This document shows positions 45,739 to 56,642 of a stretch of DNA of 64,000 bases, in pieces. Each line of letters begins with the position of its first letter. Position 1 is the first letter of the stretch. Source of the stretch: Deltaproteobacteria bacterium (GTDB lineage Bacteria; Myxococcota; Myxococcia; Myxococcales; 40CM-4-68-19); assembly GCA_005879315.1 (NCBI GenBank), contig VBLC01000048.1:17919-81918 (forward strand). Reading direction: 5' to 3'. Made by a program: the position numbers and the translations under genes. The notes beneath the pieces were generated by a model. The model was not told the origin of the DNA and made no database searches. It saw only the letters and a program-made list of their open reading frames with translations.

Positions 45739-45859
45739 AGAGTGGCGCCTCCGCATCGAAGACATCCTGGCGGCGGTCGAGCGCGTGCAGCGCACCACCA
45801 TCAGCACCCCGCGAAGGACCCGGCTCGCCTCGCTCTTCAGGCGGGCACTGGAAGCGTGA
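45728..45859 (+). pseudogene. Truncated HEPN (DUF86-type) partner
   Basis: A 43-aa frame from GTG 45728 overlaps the MNT stop by 11 bases, as is usual for MNT-HEPN pairs. It starts like DUF86 HEPN proteins (PPREWRLRIEDILAAVERVQR), but after about 22 residues it runs into unrelated sequence and stops. The RNase motif RxxxxH region is absent. It ends inside the 3' end of the convergent histidine kinase gene. It was too short for the ORF track. Confidence 0.65.
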
Positions 45860-47540
45860 ACCAGAAGCGCGATCCTTTTCCGGGTTCGCTCGCGACGCCC
45901 ATCTCACCGCCGTGCGCGCGCACGATCTCGCGGGAGATGTACAAACCGAGCCCGATGCCCTCGCCCTTGGTGCCCGGCACGCGGAAGAACTTCTCGAAGA
46001 TGCGCTCGCGATACTCGGGCGCGATGCCCTGACCCTGGTCGGCCACCTCGAAGCGCACCTGCTTGCCGTTCGCCTGCGCGCGCACCGTCACGTCGGTGCC
46101 GCGCGCGCTGTGGCGGACGGCGTTACTGATCAGGTTGTCGAAGACCAACCCCACGCGCTCCGGGTCTGCCAGCACCGGCAGCACCGGCTCTGTGATCTCC
46201 ACCCGCAGCTTGACGCCCGCCTCCGCCGCGCCGTCCTCACGCACCGCCACCGCCCCCTCGACCAGCGCCTTGGAAGAGATGGGCGCCGGCTCGACCTCGA
46301 CCTTGCCCGCCTGGATGCGCGAGAGGTCGAGCAGGTCGTCGACGATGCCCTGCAGCCGCTCGCAGTCCTCGCGCGCGGCGAAGAGCATCTCCGCCTGCGC
46401 GTCGTTGATGCGGCCCACCGTGCCCTCGACGAGAATGTGGATGGCCATGCGCAGCGAGGTGAGCGGCGTGCGGAACTCGTGCGCGACAGTGGCGACCAGG
46501 TCGTTCTTCAGCTCGTCGAAGCGCAACAGGCGCGTCACGTCCTGCAGCACCACGGTCGCGCCGCTGACCGCGCCCTGCTCGGAATAGAGCGGCGCGCCGC
46601 GCGGCAAGAGGCGCCTGTCGCGCAGCGGTACCGCCTCCTCCAGCCCGCGTGGCACGTACGCGCCCTTCCCGCCCACCACGTGCAGCCGCACCCTCTCGAT
46701 GGCCTCGCGCACCTGCGGCTCGGCGCGCCCCAGCGGATCGGGTCCGGCCTGGATCTGCAGGCTGGTCTCCGCGCTCTGGTTGACGTTGAGCACGCGCCCG
46801 TCCACTCCCAGCACCAGCACCGGATCGGGCAGGCTGTCGATGGCCGCCTGCGACGCCTGCTGCGCCTGGAGCAACTCGCCCAGCGAGCTATTGCGGTACT
46901 CGCGCAGCTTGTCGGCCATGGTGTCGAACTCGCGGCCCAGGCGCGCGATCTCGTCCTCGCCCGCGATGCGCGCGCGGGTGTCGAGATCGCCCTCGCCGAT
47001 GCGGCGCACCGCCATGGAGAGCCGCGAGAGCGGCCGCAGTGCGCGGTTGGTCAACGCCGCCGAGGAGACGAGCCCGAACAAGAGCCCGATCACGGTGGCG
47101 AAGACCAACAGCGACTGGTTGCTCTCGGCTGTGCGCTGCGCCTGCTCGCTTTTCTGCACCATCGCGTCCTGGTTGATCTCGAGGATGCGCTGCGCGGCGT
47201 CGCGCACCTGCGCGTAGCGCGGCTGGCCCTGCTGGTACGCGGTCCACTCCTGCCGCAGCCGCTCGGTCAGCTCCTTCTCGCCCGGCTCGGTGAGGTTATC
47301 CTCCTGCGCTTTCAGCTCGGCCTCGAACTGCGCGGCGGCCTCGGGCGAGCGCTTGCGATCCATCTGCTCCAGCGCGTCCTTCATCCGCTGCGCCGCCAGT
47401 ACGCTGCGGTAATTGTCCTTGAGGATGCGCTGCGAGCTGCGGCCCAGCTCGCTCAGCGTGCGCAGGGCCACTACTCCGAGGAGCGCGAGCACCAGCGCCA
47501 GCGGCGCCTGGGCGAGGAGCAGCTTGCTGCGCAGGCTCAC
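45837..47540 (-). CDS. HAMP-PAS histidine kinase of the kdp locus
   Basis: This 567-aa kinase starts at GTG 47540, overlapping the stop of the KdpD-like gene (GTGA). It has membrane helices at about 10-28 and 155-178, a helical periplasmic domain, a HAMP domain, a PAS domain (SLPDPVLVLGVDGRVLNVN), the H-box VAHEFRTPL, and the catalytic motifs LISNAVRH, VADQGQGI and GIGLGLYISR. It lacks the four-helix DUF4118 region of classical KdpD. It is probably the kinase half of the split potassium sensor. Confidence 0.88.
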   Translation of the reverse strand: MSLRSKLLLAQAPLALVLALLGVVALRTLSELGRSSQRILKDNYRSVLAAQRMKDALEQMDRKRSPEAAAQFEAELKAQEDNLTEPGEKELTERLRQEWTAYQQGQPRYAQVRDAAQRILEINQDAMVQKSEQAQRTAESNQSLLVFATVIGLLFGLVSSAALTNRALRPLSRLSMAVRRIGEGDLDTRARIAGEDEIARLGREFDTMADKLREYRNSSLGELLQAQQASQAAIDSLPDPVLVLGVDGRVLNVNQSAETSLQIQAGPDPLGRAEPQVREAIERVRLHVVGGKGAYVPRGLEEAVPLRDRRLLPRGAPLYSEQGAVSGATVVLQDVTRLLRFDELKNDLVATVAHEFRTPLTSLRMAIHILVEGTVGRINDAQAEMLFAAREDCERLQGIVDDLLDLSRIQAGKVEVEPAPISSKALVEGAVAVREDGAAEAGVKLRVEITEPVLPVLADPERVGLVFDNLISNAVRHSARGTDVTVRAQANGKQVRFEVADQGQGIAPEYRERIFEKFFRVPGTKGEGIGLGLYISREIVRAHGGEMGVASEPGKGSRFWFTLPVPA

Positions 47541-48766
47541 TGCTCCTCCTCGAAGGAGACGATGTGCAGGTCGAGATCGGTGGCCTCGCGCAAGAGCCGG
47601 GTCAAAACCGACCCGAAGAGCACCTGCCTCCACCACGGCTGCAGCGATCGCCCGAGGATCAGCCGCGACACCCCGTGCGTGCGGGCAAAGTCGAGGATGG
47701 CCTGCGCCGGATCGTCGGACTTGAGCCGCACCACCTCCGCCCCCAGCTCGCGGGCCTTCTCGATGTTGGCGAGCAGGTGCCGCTGCGCCTCGGAGTCGAT
47801 CAGCTCGGGCGACTCGCGCGGCGTCTCAACGTAGACCACGTACCAGTCGGTGTTGAGCCGCCCCGCCATCCGCGAGCCGCGCTCGAGCAGCGTCTTGGCG
47901 CGCGGCGGGTTGGAGGCGAGGCACACCATCACCCGCCCCGCCGGCCTCGACTGCGGCTCGGTCGGGCGGGCAGCGCGGTCGAGGCTCTCGGCCACCTCGC
48001 GGAGCGCCAGCTCGCGCAGCGTGGCCAGGTTCTGGTCCTTGAAGAAGTTCTCCAGCGCCCAGGGAATCTTGTCCGCCGCGTAGATCTTTCCCTGTTTCAA
48101 TCTTTCCTGGAGATCCTCGACGGCCAGGTCCAGGTTCACCACCTGATCCGCTTGCTTGAGAAAACCGTCGGGCACCGTCTCGCGCACCGTCACGCCGGTG
48201 GCGCGCTCGATCAGTCCGTTCAAGGATTCCAGGTGCTGCACGTTGAGCGCGCCGATGATGTTGATGCCCGCGTCGAGCAGCGCCAGCACGTCCTGCCAGC
48301 GCTTGCGATTCTGCGAGCCCGGCGCGTTGGTGTGGGCGAACTCGTCCACCACCGCGATCTGCGGCTTGCGCGCGACAACCGCCTGGAGATCCATCTCCTC
48401 CACCTGAACGCCGCGGTACTCGATGCGCTTGCGCGGCACCACTTCCAGTCCCTCGATCAGCGCGATGGTATCGGCGCGGCCGTGCGGCTCGACGAAGCCC
48501 ACCACCACGTCCACGCCGCGGCGCCGCAGATCGTGCGCCTCCTGCAGCATGCGGTAAGTCTTGCCCACTCCCGCCGCGAAGCCGACGTAGAGCTTGAGCC
48601 GGCCGCGGCGGGCGCGCTCGACCAGCTCGAGGAAGTCCTCGGGTCGGCGCGCGGTCTCAGCCGTCTTCGTACTTCCTCCGCTTGCGCCAGAGGGTGCTGG
48701 AATCGAGTCCGAGGATGCGCGCCGCCTCCTCTTGCGTCTTGCTCCGCGCCAGCACGCGCAGGACAT
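47537..48766 (-). CDS. kdpD: KdpD N-terminal domain plus USP domain (no kinase)
   Basis: The chain carries the KdpD cytoplasmic sensor domain (GFAAGVGKTYRMLQEA Walker A; VVDEFAHTNAPGSQNRKRWQD) and a universal-stress-protein domain (RVMVCLASNPPRAKTLLERG), then ends. There is no membrane or kinase domain. The only in-frame ATG is at 48766, deep inside the upstream regulator gene and giving an odd basic N-terminus. The family start (AETARRPEDF) falls at an ACG at 48664 next to the regulator stop, with GGAGG upstream. So the true start is uncertain: an ACG start, or coupling. It probably senses K+ or ATP levels for the kinase encoded next. Confidence 0.85.
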   Translation of the reverse strand: MSCACWRGARRKRRRRASSDSIPAPSGASGGSTKTAETARRPEDFLELVERARRGRLKLYVGFAAGVGKTYRMLQEAHDLRRRGVDVVVGFVEPHGRADTIALIEGLEVVPRKRIEYRGVQVEEMDLQAVVARKPQIAVVDEFAHTNAPGSQNRKRWQDVLALLDAGINIIGALNVQHLESLNGLIERATGVTVRETVPDGFLKQADQVVNLDLAVEDLQERLKQGKIYAADKIPWALENFFKDQNLATLRELALREVAESLDRAARPTEPQSRPAGRVMVCLASNPPRAKTLLERGSRMAGRLNTDWYVVYVETPRESPELIDSEAQRHLLANIEKARELGAEVVRLKSDDPAQAILDFARTHGVSRLILGRSLQPWWRQVLFGSVLTRLLREATDLDLHIVSFEEEQ

Positions 48767-50021
48767 GCTCGCGCTCGATCTCCTCGGCGGTGAAATCGCC
48801 GCCCAGCGCCGGTCTGCCCGCGGCGTGAGCGGCGATGCGATCGGGGAACGCCTCGGGCGCGAGCCGTTGGCCGGGGCTGAGGATGACCGCGCGCTCGATG
48901 GCGTTGCGCAGCTCGCGTACGTTGCCGGGCCAGGGATAGGCCAGGAGCGCCTTCTCCGCTTCCGGCGTCAGCTCGGGCGGCGCGCGGCGGCCGGCGCGGG
49001 CGAAGAAGGCGAGGAAACGGAAAGCCAGCGGCAGGATCTCGTCCTGGCGATCGCGCAGCGCCGGAACGGTCAGCTCCACCACATTGAGCCGGAAGAGGAG
49101 GTCCTCGCGAAAGTGGCCCTCGCGCACCGCGACGTCCAGGTCGCGGTTGGTGGCGGCGACGATGCGCACGTTGGCCGTGCGCGTGCGCGACTCGCCGATG
49201 CGCTCGAACTGCTTGTCCTGCAAGAAGCGCAGCAGCTTGACCTGGATTCCTCCGGGGATTTCGCCCACCTCGTCGAGAAAGAGCGTCCCGCCTTCGGCCG
49301 CCTCGACGCGGCCGGGCCGATCGCGGACCGCGCCAGTGAACGCGCCCTTGGCATGGCCGAACATCTCGCTCGCCAAGAGCTCCTCGGAAAGCGCCGGACA
49401 GTTGACGACGAAGAAGGGCCGGTCGCGCCGCGGACTCATGCGGTGCAGTGCGCGGGCCAGCACGCTCTTGCCGGTGCCGCTCTCGCCGCGCAAGAGCACC
49501 GGCACGTCGTGGGCAGCAGCGCGCGAAACGACTTCCATCACCGCGCGCATCGGCGCGCTGGAAGTCTCCAGGCTGACTTCCGGGGCGGCGTCTGCCAGCT
49601 GCTCTTCCAGATCGAGGAGGCGTTGTTCCAGATCGCGACGCGCGCGGGCCGCCTCGATCACGCGCTTGATCTGCGCCGGGGTGAACGGCTTGGGCAGGTA
49701 ATCCTTGGCCCCGCGCTTGATCGCCTCCACCGCGGTGTCGAAGGCCGCGTAGGCGGTGATCATCACCACGTCGAGCCCCGGCCGCTCGGCCAGGAGCCGG
49801 GGCAACAGATCTAGGCCGTCCTCGCGGCCGAGCCGCAGGTCGACCAGCGCCACGTCGTGCGGCGCGCGGGCCAGCGCCTCCAGCGCCGAGGCGGGCGAGC
49901 CGGCCTCCGTCACCTGGCAACCCAGGCCCTGCAGGCAGACCACCAGCGTCTTGCGGATGTTGCGCTCGTCGTCCACTACCAGGACGCGCAGGGCAGGCCG
50001 CGATTCCATGGTCTCCATCAT
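48657..50021 (-). CDS. NtrC-type sigma-54-dependent response regulator of the kdp locus
   Basis: This 454-aa regulator has a receiver domain (about 10-125, Asp in VALVDLRLG, Lys in YLPKPF). A sigma-54 AAA+ domain follows (Walker A GESGTGKS, loop GAFTGA, Walker B GTLFLDEVGE), then a Fis-type HTH (TQEEAARILGLDSSTLWRKRRKY). Classical KdpE is an OmpR/PhoB-type protein, so this locus uses a different activator class. The start at 50021 has GAGGTG upstream; the track start at 50150 would run into kdpC. It lies 10 bases after kdpC. Confidence 0.92.
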   Translation of the reverse strand: MMETMESRPALRVLVVDDERNIRKTLVVCLQGLGCQVTEAGSPASALEALARAPHDVALVDLRLGREDGLDLLPRLLAERPGLDVVMITAYAAFDTAVEAIKRGAKDYLPKPFTPAQIKRVIEAARARRDLEQRLLDLEEQLADAAPEVSLETSSAPMRAVMEVVSRAAAHDVPVLLRGESGTGKSVLARALHRMSPRRDRPFFVVNCPALSEELLASEMFGHAKGAFTGAVRDRPGRVEAAEGGTLFLDEVGEIPGGIQVKLLRFLQDKQFERIGESRTRTANVRIVAATNRDLDVAVREGHFREDLLFRLNVVELTVPALRDRQDEILPLAFRFLAFFARAGRRAPPELTPEAEKALLAYPWPGNVRELRNAIERAVILSPGQRLAPEAFPDRIAAHAAGRPALGGDFTAEEIEREHVLRVLARSKTQEEAARILGLDSSTLWRKRRKYEDG

Positions 50022-50031
50022 CGCGCGCACC

Positions 50032-50622
50032 TCAGCGGCCTGCCAGCGGCGGGCGCCCGAGCAGCCGATCGAGCGCGAGGTTGACGAGCAGAACGTTGAC
50101 GCGCGGCTCGCCAAGCACCAGCAGATCGCGGCCTTCGACGTTGCTCTCAATCACCGCGCGCACTCGCGCCTCGGCCACACCGCGAGCACGAGCGATGCGC
50201 GGCGCCTGCCAGAGCGCGGCGGCGGGCGAGAGGTGCGGATCGAGGCCGCTCGCGGAAGTGGTGAGGAGTTCCGGCGGCACCGGTCTTGTGCTTTGCGGCT
50301 GCAGCCGGTCGCGCTCTTTCTGCGCCCGCTCGCGCAGCGCCTTGGAAGTGGGGCCGAGATTCGACCCGCCCGAGGAAGTGGCGTCGTAGCCTTTCTCGCC
50401 AGCCGCCGAGGGGCGCGGCTGCAAGTAGGCATCGGCCGTGAAGAGCTGTGCAATCAGCTCCGACCCCACCACCTGCCCTTTCTCGTCGGTGACCAGGCTT
50501 CCCCGCGCGCGCTGGGGAAAGAGGATTAGCGCCACGCCGGCGGTGAAGAGCGGATAGGCGAGGCCAGTCAGCACAAGCGTGACCAGCGTCGCGCGAAGGG
50601 CAATGAGGAGCTCGCGTTTCAT
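50032..50622 (-). CDS. kdpC: Potassium-transporting ATPase C chain
   Basis: This 196-aa subunit of the KdpFABC complex has one N-terminal membrane helix (about 10-33) and the family segments [19 protein letters not shown] and [25 protein letters not shown]. KdpC stabilises the complex and affects ATP binding. Its start overlaps the kdpB stop (ATGA). The motifs are complete. Confidence 0.96.
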
Positions 50623-52697: not shown

Positions 52698-54371
52698 CTA
52701 GAACACCTTTCCCGCCGCGCCGGCGAAGTGCTCCGCGAGCGGGCCGAGCGAGAGCGCGGGGAAGAAGGTGAGCGCTCCGACGATCACCACCACCGAGATG
52801 AGCAGCGTGACGAAGAGCGCGCCATTGGTGGGGAAGGTACCGGTCCCGGCCGGGATGACCTTCTTGCCCGCCATCGATCCGGCGATGGCGAGCGCCGGCA
52901 CGATCATCAGGAATCGCCCGATGAGCATGTCGAAGCCGAGCGCCACGTTCCAGAAGGGCGTGTTGGCGTTCAGTCCCGCGAAGGTCGAGCCGTTGTTTCC
53001 CGCGCCGCTGGAAAAGGCGTAGAGGATTTCCGACAGGCCGTGCGGCCCGGCGTTGGCGAGGCTGCTGGTTCCGTAGGGCACGACCGCGGCCCAGCCGGCG
53101 AGGCTCAAGATGATGAGCGGGAAGACCAGCACGTAGAGCATGGCCAGCTTCATCTCGCGCGCCTCGATTTTTTTTCCCAGGTATTCGGGCGTGCGGCCCA
53201 CCATCAGGCCGGCGATGAAGACGGTGAGCAGCACGAAGACCAGCATTCCGTAGAGGCCCGCGCCAACCCCGCCGAAGATCACTTCGCCGAGTTGGATGTT
53301 GGCCAGCGGCACCAAACCGCCGAGCGGGGTGAAGCTGTCGTGCATGGAGTTGACCGCCCCGCAGCTCGCGTCAGTGGTGACGGTGGCAAAGAGTGCCGAG
53401 GCGGCGATGCCGAATCGCGTCTCCTTTCCTTCCAGGTTCGGCGCGTGCAGCGCGGGGTTGTCGCGGCTCTCGGCCGCGTAGGTCGCCGTGACTCCCGCGA
53501 AGAAGAGCACGGCCATGGCGGCGAAGAGCGCCCAACCCTGCCGCTGATCGCCGGCCATGCGCCCGTACGTCCAGGTCAGCGCCGACGGAATGGCAAAGAT
53601 GGACACTAGCTGTACAAAGTTCGTGAGCGGCGTTGGGTTCTCGAACGGGTGGGCGCTGTTGGCGTTGAAGAAGCCGCCGCCGTTGGTGCCGAGCATCTTG
53701 ATCGCTTCCTGCGAGGCGACCGGGCCCATCGCGAGCGTCTGCTTCACGCCCTCGAGCGTGGTCAGCTCTTTGTACGGCGCGAGGTTCTGCAGCACTCCCT
53801 GCGAGACGAGAAAGAGCGCGTAGAAGAAGCTGATGGGAAGCAGCACGTAGATGGTGGCACGCAGCAGGTCGGCCCAGAAGTTGCCGACGGTGTGGCCGCG
53901 CCCCTTGCGCGTGAACCCGCGCGCCAGCGCCAGCGCCACCGCGATTCCCGCCGCCGCCGAGGTGAAATTGTGCCAGGCGAGTCCGGCCATCTGGGTGAGG
54001 TAGCTAACCGTCGTCTCGGGCGTGTACGCCTGCCAGTTGGTGTTGGTGGCGAAGCTCGCGGCGGTGTTGAAGGCAAGCGCCGGCTCGACGCCGGACAAGT
54101 GCTGCGGGTTGAAGGGCAGGTGCAACTGAAGCCGCTCGATAGCGTAGGTGACCAGCACGCCGAAGAGGCTGAAGGCGAGCAGCGAAATTGTGTATGCGGA
54201 CCAGCTTTGCTCTTCGCCCGCGGTCCCGCAGAGACGGAACGCGGCGCGCTCGAGGCGCGGCAACAGCGGCGGCCCCGCGAAGACGCGGAACATGTACGCG
54301 CCGAGCGGCCTGGTCACCGCCAGCACGACGAGAAAGAAGAGTCCGATCTGCGCCCAGCCGATGGCGGTCAT
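52698..54371 (-). CDS. kdpA: Potassium-transporting ATPase A chain
   Basis: This 557-aa polytopic membrane protein forms the K+ channel-like part of KdpFABC. It has about ten hydrophobic segments and the selectivity-filter-type Gly stretches ([66 protein letters not shown]). It starts three bases after kdpF and is followed closely by kdpB. Nothing is missing compared with the family. Confidence 0.97.
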
Positions 54372-54374
54372 CGC

Positions 54375-54464
54375 TTAGAACCGCTCGGGCTTGAGGAGCG
54401 CGCAGGCGAGATAGACGGTGAGCAGCGCCGTCAGCGCGAGGCCGATTCCGTATTCGAGAGTCAC
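54375..54464 (-). CDS. kdpF: KdpF small subunit (29 aa)
   Basis: A 29-aa frame from GTG 54464 encodes a single membrane helix with the KdpF pattern (TLEYGIGLALTALLTVYLACALLKPERF). KdpF stabilises the KdpFABC complex. Its GTG overlaps the stop of the 28-aa peptide upstream (GTGA), and it ends three bases before kdpA. It is too short for the ORF track. Confidence 0.9.
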   Translation of the reverse strand: MTLEYGIGLALTALLTVYLACALLKPERF

Positions 54465-54547
54465 GGCATGCCCTCGCAGTAACGCACGTAGGCCCACGAC
54501 AGCGCGAAGAACGCGACGGTCCCGAGGACGAACCAGAAGTCGAGCAT
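54461..54547 (-). CDS. 28-aa membrane peptide at the head of the kdp operon
   Basis: The ATG at 54547 follows GCGAGGTGCC and opens a 28-aa frame (MLDFWFVLGTVAFFALSWAY ...) that is one membrane helix followed by VRYCEGMP. It is coupled to kdpF by GTGA. Similar tiny hydrophobic frames are found in front of kdpF/kdpA in other bacteria but are seldom annotated. It may be a second accessory subunit or a leader that sets kdpF translation. The coding claim rests on the ribosome site, coupling and composition. Confidence 0.7.
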   Translation of the reverse strand: MLDFWFVLGTVAFFALSWAYVRYCEGMP

Positions 54548-54605
54548 GGCACCTCGCTGTGCATGCGCCATGCCTGTCCGCTCAGAGGGGCGCGGCCCAC
54601 GGCGG

Positions 54606-54651
54606 CTTGCACGATGCAAGGAACGCTGCGGCGCGAGGTTGCAATGTGCAA
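54606..54651. promoter_or_regulatory. Paired TTGCA-N3-TGCAA dyads upstream of the kdp operon
   Basis: TTGCAcgaTGCAA at 54607-54619 and TTGCAatgTGCAA at 54639-54651 share identical 5-bp arms and are centred 32 bp apart, about three helical turns. They sit 66 and 98 bp upstream of the first kdp start codon, where an NtrC-type activator would bind. They are likely binding sites for the locus regulator (inference). No convincing -24/-12 box was found. Confidence 0.55.
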
Positions 54652-55647
54652 TCAGAAAGTCGCGACGGCGCTGGCAAGAGCCAGCGCTTGCGTCTTCGAG
54701 GAAGCGAATACGGCCGCGTCCGACGCGTCGAAGCGCCCTTCGAGCTTCAAGACGAGGTGTTCCGCCGGACGCAGCTCAAGAGTCACGGTGCCATCCTTGA
54801 GGAGCTGCGGAGTCCCGGAGAGGAATCCGTCGGCGTCATCGTAATACTCGGCGCGGAGCGCCAGAGCGGCCTTCTGGTTTAGCGCAAGGCGCGCGAACAG
54901 ACCCGCTCCGTGCCACGCCGCCGCTCCCTTGGCGCGATCCTGCCGGCCCACGTCCACCGTCGCCCCCAGCGAGAGCTGTGCGGTCGCCTTGTATTGCGCG
55001 GTGACGTCGCCGAAGAGGCGCCAGTGCGAATCGTCCCCCGGCAGCTCGGGGCCGGCGAAGGTGTTGAGAGCGACCGAGAGGCGATCACCGGCGAATGCAA
55101 TCTGCGTCCCCACCGCCTTGGCGCGGTTGTTGTCCTCGATGATTTGCCAGCCATTTAGGAAATGGATCTGCGCGGACCAGTGCGCGTCGAACGCGTAGGC
55201 GATTTTCAATCCAGCTTGATAGTAAGGCGAGAACTCGCCCATGTAGCCGCGCGTATAGTTCCAATTGTCTTTGGAGAAGAAGCTCTCGTAGCCGATGTGC
55301 GAGGGATAGATACCGGCCTCGAAGAGCAGCCCCGACCCGATGGACGCGGTATAGCTCACGCTCGCTTGATAGATGGCGCGCCAGATCTCCGGCTCGCGCT
55401 CCGCCGCGTGCACTACTTCAGGGCCGGTGCCGTAGGCGAGCGTAAGGTGGAATCCAACCGGCTTGGGCTCGAGCGCGACGTCGAGCGCCGCCGCGTTGAG
55501 GCTCACCTCGTTCGCGCGGTGCGCGGTCGTGCCGGTGCCGGGCAAGAAGTTCTCCGAGCCGTGAGCGTTGTACGCGTAGAAGACATCGACCAGGCCATGA
55601 ACGTCGACGGCCTGCGCGAGCAAGAGAGCGATAGCGAGTGCGGGCAT
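54652..55647 (-). CDS. Outer membrane beta-barrel porin (BBP2-like)
   Basis: The start at 55647 (MPALAIALLLAQAVDVHG) has GGAGGG eight bases upstream. The track start at 55806 comes from reading through the tRNA. The 331-aa product has a signal peptide and amphipathic strands throughout, with the BBP2-type segments DVFYAYNAHGSENFLP and GIYPSHIGYESFFSKDNWNYTRGY, and ends in Phe, the usual last residue of outer membrane barrels. Its place in front of kdp suggests an outer membrane path for K+ when potassium is scarce (inference). Confidence 0.85.
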   Translation of the reverse strand: MPALAIALLLAQAVDVHGLVDVFYAYNAHGSENFLPGTGTTAHRANEVSLNAAALDVALEPKPVGFHLTLAYGTGPEVVHAAEREPEIWRAIYQASVSYTASIGSGLLFEAGIYPSHIGYESFFSKDNWNYTRGYMGEFSPYYQAGLKIAYAFDAHWSAQIHFLNGWQIIEDNNRAKAVGTQIAFAGDRLSVALNTFAGPELPGDDSHWRLFGDVTAQYKATAQLSLGATVDVGRQDRAKGAAAWHGAGLFARLALNQKAALALRAEYYDDADGFLSGTPQLLKDGTVTLELRPAEHLVLKLEGRFDASDAAVFASSKTQALALASAVATF

Positions 55648-55744
55648 GGCGTCGCCCTCCTGCATCCCGGATGCCAGGGCGTCCTCGCGCGCATCCTTCG
55701 GATGAGTCGCCGGCGCCTCTGCAAGTGATGAAGAGCAGATGGAG

Positions 55745-55821
55745 TGGCGGGCGCTACTGGATTCGAACCAGTGGCCTTCGGCTTCGGAGACCGACGCTCT
55801 ATCCAACTGAGCTAAGCGCCC
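55745..55821 (-). tRNA. tRNA-Arg (anticodon CCG)
   Basis: The minus strand folds as a full tRNA: 7-bp acceptor stem GGGCGCT/AGCGCCC, D arm GCTC-AGTTGGATA-GAGC, anticodon loop CTCCGAA with anticodon CCG (reads CGG), T arm ACTGG-TTCGAAT-CCAGT, and an encoded CCA end at 55745-55747. Its 3' 47 bases are repeated at 43011-43057. Confidence 0.96.
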
Positions 55822-55868
55822 GCGAGGCGAAGGCTCTATCCCGCCCGGCGCGGGCAGGCAAGGCGATT

Positions 55869-56642
55869 TCAGCGGACGGCCGTGGGGGCGAGCTTGCGCC
55901 CCTCGGCCGCGAAGCGCGGGCTGCGCAACAGACCCCAGCGCGCGGCGCGATATTGCAGTGCGGTGGCGAGGACGCCGAAGCCGTACTTCACGCTGCGGCG
56001 GAAATTGATCGACGACGCCTCGGCGAAGTAGCGCGCCGGGCAGGTGATCTCGCCGATCTGGAATCCGAACCAGATCGCCTGCGCCAGCATCTGGTTGTCG
56101 AAGACGAAGTCGTCGGAGTTCTCCTCCAGCGGAAGCGTCTCGAGGAGCCGGCGGGAGAAGGCGCGATAGCCCGTGTGGTACTCGGCCAGCTTGTAGCCGA
56201 TCAACAAGTTCTCGAAGAGCGTCAGCAGGCGGTTTGCAAAATATTTCCAGACCGGCATGCCGCCCGCCAGCGCGCCGGCGCCGAGAACGCGCGAGCCGAG
56301 CACGGCGTCGAAGTGGCCGCTCGCCACCATTCCCGCCATCGCCGGGATCAGGCGCGGCGAATACTGGTAGTCGGGGTGGACCATCACCACGATGTCCGCT
56401 CCGCGCGCGAGCGCCTCGGCGTAGCAGGTCTTCTGGTTGCCGCCGTAGCCGCGATTGCTGGGATGGACGATGACGTGCAGCCCGAGCTCGCGCGCGACCC
56501 GGACCGTCTCGTCGCGCGACTGATCGTCGACGAGGATGACGTCGTCGGCGACGCCGCGGTCGATCTCCTCGGCCGTCCGCCGCAGCGTCTTCTCCGCGTT
56601 GTACGCGGGCATCACCACGCAGATGCGGCGGCCGGAGATCAT
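55869..56642 (-). CDS. Family 2 glycosyltransferase (dolichol-phosphate-mannose synthase-like)
   Basis: This 257-aa GT2 enzyme has the N-terminal [15 protein letters not shown] nucleotide-binding start, [15 protein letters not shown] and the [10 protein letters not shown] acceptor segment, plus the DPM1-like C-terminal region. It probably transfers a sugar from a nucleotide donor to a polyprenyl phosphate. The start at 56642 overlaps the stop of the polytopic membrane protein gene (ATGA), so the two likely work together on lipid-linked sugars. Confidence 0.9.

Follow-up and report, generated by a model that had tools for sequence, protein, structure and literature searches.

Paired TTGCA-N3-TGCAA dyads as a probable upstream activating sequence of a kdp operon that encodes its own NtrC-type regulator

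The kdp locus and its upstream region

The window analyzed here, a stretch of 64,000 nucleotides, carries a kdp operon in which two inverted repeats lie between a porin gene and the kdp genes. All of these genes are encoded by the minus strand. A tRNA-Arg gene and a BBP2 porin gene are found upstream of the dyads, and the gene order after them is ORF1, kdpF, kdpA, kdpB, kdpC, an NtrC-type regulator, a kinase-less KdpD with a Usp domain, and a putative histidine kinase. The features are as follows, with promoter-relative positions counted from the predicted transcription start.

54652-55647, minus strand: BBP2 (OmpL-like) porin, adjoining the dyads on their upstream side
54639-54651, minus strand: distal dyad, TTGCACATTGCAA as read on the minus strand, centre 54645, about -96
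54607-54619, minus strand: proximal dyad, TTGCATCGTGCAA as read on the minus strand, centre 54613, about -64
54560-54575, minus strand: predicted sigma-54 promoter AGGCATGGCGCATGCA, with GG at 54574-54573 and GC at 54562-54561
54461-54547, minus strand: ORF1, 28 amino acids (MLDFWFVLGTVAFFALSWAYVRYCEGMP), no family match, kept upstream of kdpF in relatives
54375-54464, minus strand: kdpF, 29 amino acids, GTG start, TIGR02115 / PF09604 above cut-off
52698-54371, minus strand: kdpA, PF03814
50619-52694, minus strand: kdpB, by its E1-E2 ATPase and HAD hydrolase matches and its place in the operon
50032-50622, minus strand: kdpC, PF02669
48657-50021, minus strand: NtrC-type response regulator with a receiver, a sigma-54 AAA+ domain with GAFTGA, and a Fis-type helix-turn-helix (HTH) ending SSTLWRKRRKY
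47537-48640 (5' end approximate), minus strand: kinase-less KdpD sensor domain plus Usp, PF02702 and PF00582; its NF038185 score is under the cut-off for that family
45837-47545 (5' end approximate), minus strand: probable partner histidine kinase, identified by reading its ORF

The original prediction described two TTGCA-N3-TGCAA dyads upstream of kdp, and the sequence scan located both of them, with the forward-strand letters TTGCACGATGCAA at 54607-54619 and TTGCAATGTGCAA at 54639-54651, the distal copy abutting the porin stop codon (54652-54654). The two centres are separated by 32 bp and stand 66 and 98 bp away from the first ATG (A at 54547), in agreement with the description, while the start given for the first dyad, 54606, was one base early. 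The start codon in question is that of the unannotated ORF1 and not that of kdpF. Across the whole genome (4.43 Mb), the motif occurs in just these two copies, and no second 45-bp pair was found in it when up to 3 mismatches were allowed. None of 100 dinucleotide shuffles of the window contained an exact match.

Conservation of the pair and its spacing

The window was compared with 107 further kdp loci (108 in total), drawn mainly from Myxococcota and Desulfovibrionaceae and including some MAGs from other phyla. The loci were oriented by kdpA and scanned for dyad pairs at spacings of 14 to 60, the target regions being the 2.5 kb upstream of kdpA or the 700 bp upstream of the regulator. Because the motif threshold came from the consensus of the original prediction, it favours sites that resemble it; many of the loci, moreover, are close relatives, so that the counts that follow are not independent. 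In the target regions, 84 pairs were spaced at 31 (27 pairs) or 32 (57 pairs); there were none at 29, 30, 33, or 34, and no other spacing accounted for more than 9 cases. Pairs outside the target regions of the same loci were few and were scattered over many spacings.

The pairs recur upstream of kdp, of an operon-leading porin, or of the regulator gene. In the closest relatives of the window, the porin is upstream of the dyads and the pair lies between porin and kdp; in many Myxococcaceae, the pair stands ahead of an operon-leading porin, which is then located between the dyads and kdp. A BBP2 porin is found beside kdp in many genomes, and its side relative to the promoter varies (loci L038, L044, L045, and L052). 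Many genomes with a convergent, separate regulator gene have a second pair before that gene, as expected for autoregulation. On contigs of Aminicenantes, Hydrogenedentes, and Fermentibacteria, pairs spaced at 31 or 32 bp are also present behind homologous regulator genes. The perfect tandem pair was absent across 288 Desulfovibrionaceae genomes; one regulator-bearing kdp locus was found in that family, and its pair is weaker. The Desulfovibrionaceae genome of L260, which has an NtrC-type kdp regulator, contains a pair at 31-bp spacing. A Desulfovibrionaceae contig, L091, has two GTGCA-N3-TGCAM dyads about 23 bp apart (~1560-1600) behind a homologous regulator gene, possibly a spacing variant.

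Scanning kdp operons with NtrC-type regulators for the same motif had been proposed as a check, and the pair was present in 49 of the 55 loci with such a regulator. It was also present in 12 of the 53 loci without a regulator in the fetched stretch. When 18 of the regulator-less loci were searched genome-wide, 15 of the genomes proved to encode the regulator at another place, among them every one of the 11 tested that carry a pair; for L046, L066, and L225, the regulator is wholly absent from the genome and there is no pair. Four regulator-bearing loci that at first scored as pairless (L226, L235, L242, and L244) carry a weaker pair where one would be expected, and six (L048, L218, L249, L250, L279, and L283) have no pair at the threshold, some of them having a single good dyad.

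A predicted sigma-54 promoter and a short open reading frame

A candidate -24/-12 element (GG-N10-GC) lies downstream of the dyads at 54574-54561, from which transcription is predicted to start at about 54549; this places the dyad centres at about -64 and -96. Promoters were scored with a simple consensus score of our own, using a threshold of 6.5 and a search range of up to 160 bp downstream of the proximal dyad. The window's element scores 7.0, a value reached by 1.1% of shuffles, and is not ideal, having an A before the GG and CA in place of TT before the GC. The element is kept in aligned relatives, which read GGCACG-N4-RTGCA, and the window's copy is of moderate quality. Elements scoring at least 6.5 follow 81% of the pairs versus 3.9% of shuffles. 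Another sigma-54 candidate, TGGCGCATGCACAGC, five bases further downstream, was dropped because the aligned relatives hold the GGCATG...ATGCA register. Neither a sigma-70 promoter nor an intrinsic terminator was found in 54000-56200. The genome encodes sigma-54 itself (rpoN; TIGR02395 over cut-off).

Measured from the centre of the proximal dyad to the -24 element, the distances fall into groups near 40, 51, 61, and 70 bp, that is, one helical turn apart. Among 55 distinct promoters, the clustering at a period of 10 to 10.5 bp gave a Rayleigh p of ~1e-9, and it held among the 25 distinct promoters at less than 66 bp (p of ~2e-4 at 10.5), both of these significance levels being inflated by common ancestry.

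An ORF of 26 to 28 codons stands ahead of kdpF in at least 36 of the 108 loci, with a consensus like MDLVLVLVTxGFFALAWAYxHGCERL and the same position in L038, L051, L054, L212-L215, and others. It matched no family in Pfam or NCBIfam and probably encodes a small membrane protein of the kdp operon that has escaped annotation. The predicted transcription start is ~2 nt before the ORF1 ATG, a distance that is equally short in close relatives. Counted from the -12 GC, the ORF1 ATG is 13 to 14 nt away in the window and its close relatives (L033, L035, L051, and L054), so that the predicted transcript would be almost without a leader; in Myxococcaceae, a distance of 15 nt between the -12 GC and the ATG of the regulator gene is common. 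It is possible, if on balance doubtful, that the kdp sigma-54 transcript is nearly leaderless and that the first protein it encodes is a conserved small membrane protein with a part in the Kdp complex or in its sensing.

The regulator and its proposed action at the dyads

The product of the regulator gene has a receiver, an AAA+ domain with GAFTGA, and a Fis-type HTH, the end of which (S-T-L-W-R-K-R) shows no or almost no variation across 14 aligned homologues. The recognition helix of LuxO reads S-T-I-Y-R-K, with S423, I425, Y426, R427, and K428 among its critical residues, and the S-T-L-W-R-K of the kdp regulator matches these. The regulator is not LuxO itself, as it reaches 319 bits against a cut-off of 800 for the NCBIfam LuxO equivalog (NF041946). 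The co-occurrence, the helix match, and the context together suggest that the kdp regulator binds the dyads.

The original prediction suggested that the dyads are an upstream activating sequence for an NtrC-type activator at a sigma-54 promoter, and the spacing of 31 or 32 bp, the -24/-12 element, the co-occurrence with the regulator, and the pairs before separate regulator genes all speak for it. Considering in addition the anatomy of the sites, their conservation, and the recognition-helix match, the two dyads are very probably the upstream activating sequence of kdp, serving as docking sites for the operon's own NtrC-type activator. Binding, activation, signal, and transcription start are here inferred from sequence, and we envisage the following scheme. 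Each 13-bp palindrome would accept one dimer of the regulator encoded at 48657-50021. A spacing of 31 or 32 bp corresponds to three turns of DNA, so both dimers would share one face of the helix and could assemble into an active AAA+ ring. The ring would contact sigma-54 RNA polymerase at the -24/-12 element and open the promoter, driving transcription of ORF1-kdpFABC-regulator-kdpD-kinase. Since the regulator gene lies inside the operon that it would drive, the regulator would boost its own production. Low potassium or turgor is presumably what the system responds to, with the kinase-less KdpD domain and the separate histidine kinase acting as the sensor.

The dyads might instead be operators of another activator or repressor, such as a sigma-54 activator whose helix is similar, through which kdp would receive a second signal. 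The genome encodes about 20 further sigma-54 activators, and each of them might in theory use this site. LuxO and SypG have sites in common, and in D. vulgaris two further regulators are described as targeting the kdp operon, with overlapping putative sites for DVU3305 and DVU3334 (PMC3333781). However, the presence of the pair follows the kdp NtrC-type regulator across genomes, the separately transcribed regulator gene carries a pair itself, and the pair is found nowhere else in the genome of the window, which makes control by another regulator improbable.

Two further readings would remove the dyads from transcriptional activation altogether. Inverted repeats directly behind a porin stop codon could form RNA hairpins, as a terminator of the porin gene or a leader element, rather than protein-binding DNA. 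The arms are only 5 bp long, though, with no T-run after them and no terminator-like site found; the dyads matched no Rfam family (the tRNA-Arg was the only Rfam match); the spacing is held at three helical turns; and the Myxococcaceae pairs stand upstream of a porin or regulator gene and not behind the porin. An RNA role is thus extremely unlikely. In favor of chance repeats without function, a genome of this size and composition should contain a single copy of the 10-letter motif about once (~0.85 from base composition). A close pair, however, is expected only ~1e-5 times per genome, and the finding of equally spaced pairs in dozens of loci refutes coincidence, leaving it virtually no probability. 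The preferred reading remains that of docking sites for the operon-encoded NtrC-type activator.

Comparison with known systems

The nearest described system is that of DVU3334 in Desulfovibrio (Nitratidesulfovibrio) vulgaris, a sigma-54 response regulator encoded within the kdp operon and mapped experimentally to that same operon (Rajeev et al. 2011, PMC3333781; PMC4641369). That system likewise has a GAFTGA regulator encoded in the kdp operon and a KdpD sensor plus UspA protein split from the histidine kinase, and the window shows the same layout of regulator, kinase-less KdpD with Usp, and separate histidine kinase (the last by ORF reading only) with kdpFABC. It belongs to another phylum, and the likeness drawn here is one of gene layout and description. 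The same report gives the DVU3334 binding motif as validated and conserved in orthologues, listed there only for D. vulgaris Miyazaki and S. fumaroxidans, and names DVU3305 as an additional regulator at the kdp operon (PMC3333781).

The dyads were thought to be perhaps a new recognition motif, but TTGCA-N3-TGCAA is, letter for letter, the published consensus of LuxO (PMC3352281). At Vibrio qrr promoters, LuxO/VanO use two sites of this consensus upstream of a sigma-54 promoter (PMC3352281, PMC10162802). Both dyads of the window conform to this LuxO-type site, and the two systems have in common the paired arrangement, an NtrC-family activator, and the matching recognition-helix residues; they differ in that the LuxO/VanO targets are quorum-sensing small RNAs and in that the regulator here is not LuxO. 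The site is thus not specific to quorum sensing, which bears on annotation by motif alone. With the LuxO consensus and the DVU3334 case already published, the motif and the mode of control are each known. What appears to be new is the assignment of the motif to the kdp NtrC-type regulator family and its spread through Myxococcota, which would extend one experimentally mapped Desulfovibrio case to that phylum. Also new are the strict 31/32-bp spacing, the location of the promoter at whole-turn distances, and the occurrence of pairs ahead of separate regulator genes. The result is a testable sequence rule: two TTGCA-N3-TGCAA-like dyads 31 or 32 bp apart and whole turns from a -24/-12 element. 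The range may be wider still, as similar pairs stand beside homologous regulators in Aminicenantes, Hydrogenedentes, Fermentibacteria, and other deltaproteobacterial MAGs.

Two-component control of kdpFABC is shared with the KdpD/KdpE system of E. coli, and the KdpD sensor domain is kept. KdpE of E. coli is of the OmpR type and works without sigma-54, whereas an NtrC-type regulator and a split KdpD stand in its place here. The high-affinity potassium pump would thereby have a second mode of control, in which a sigma-54 activator replaces the OmpR-type KdpE.
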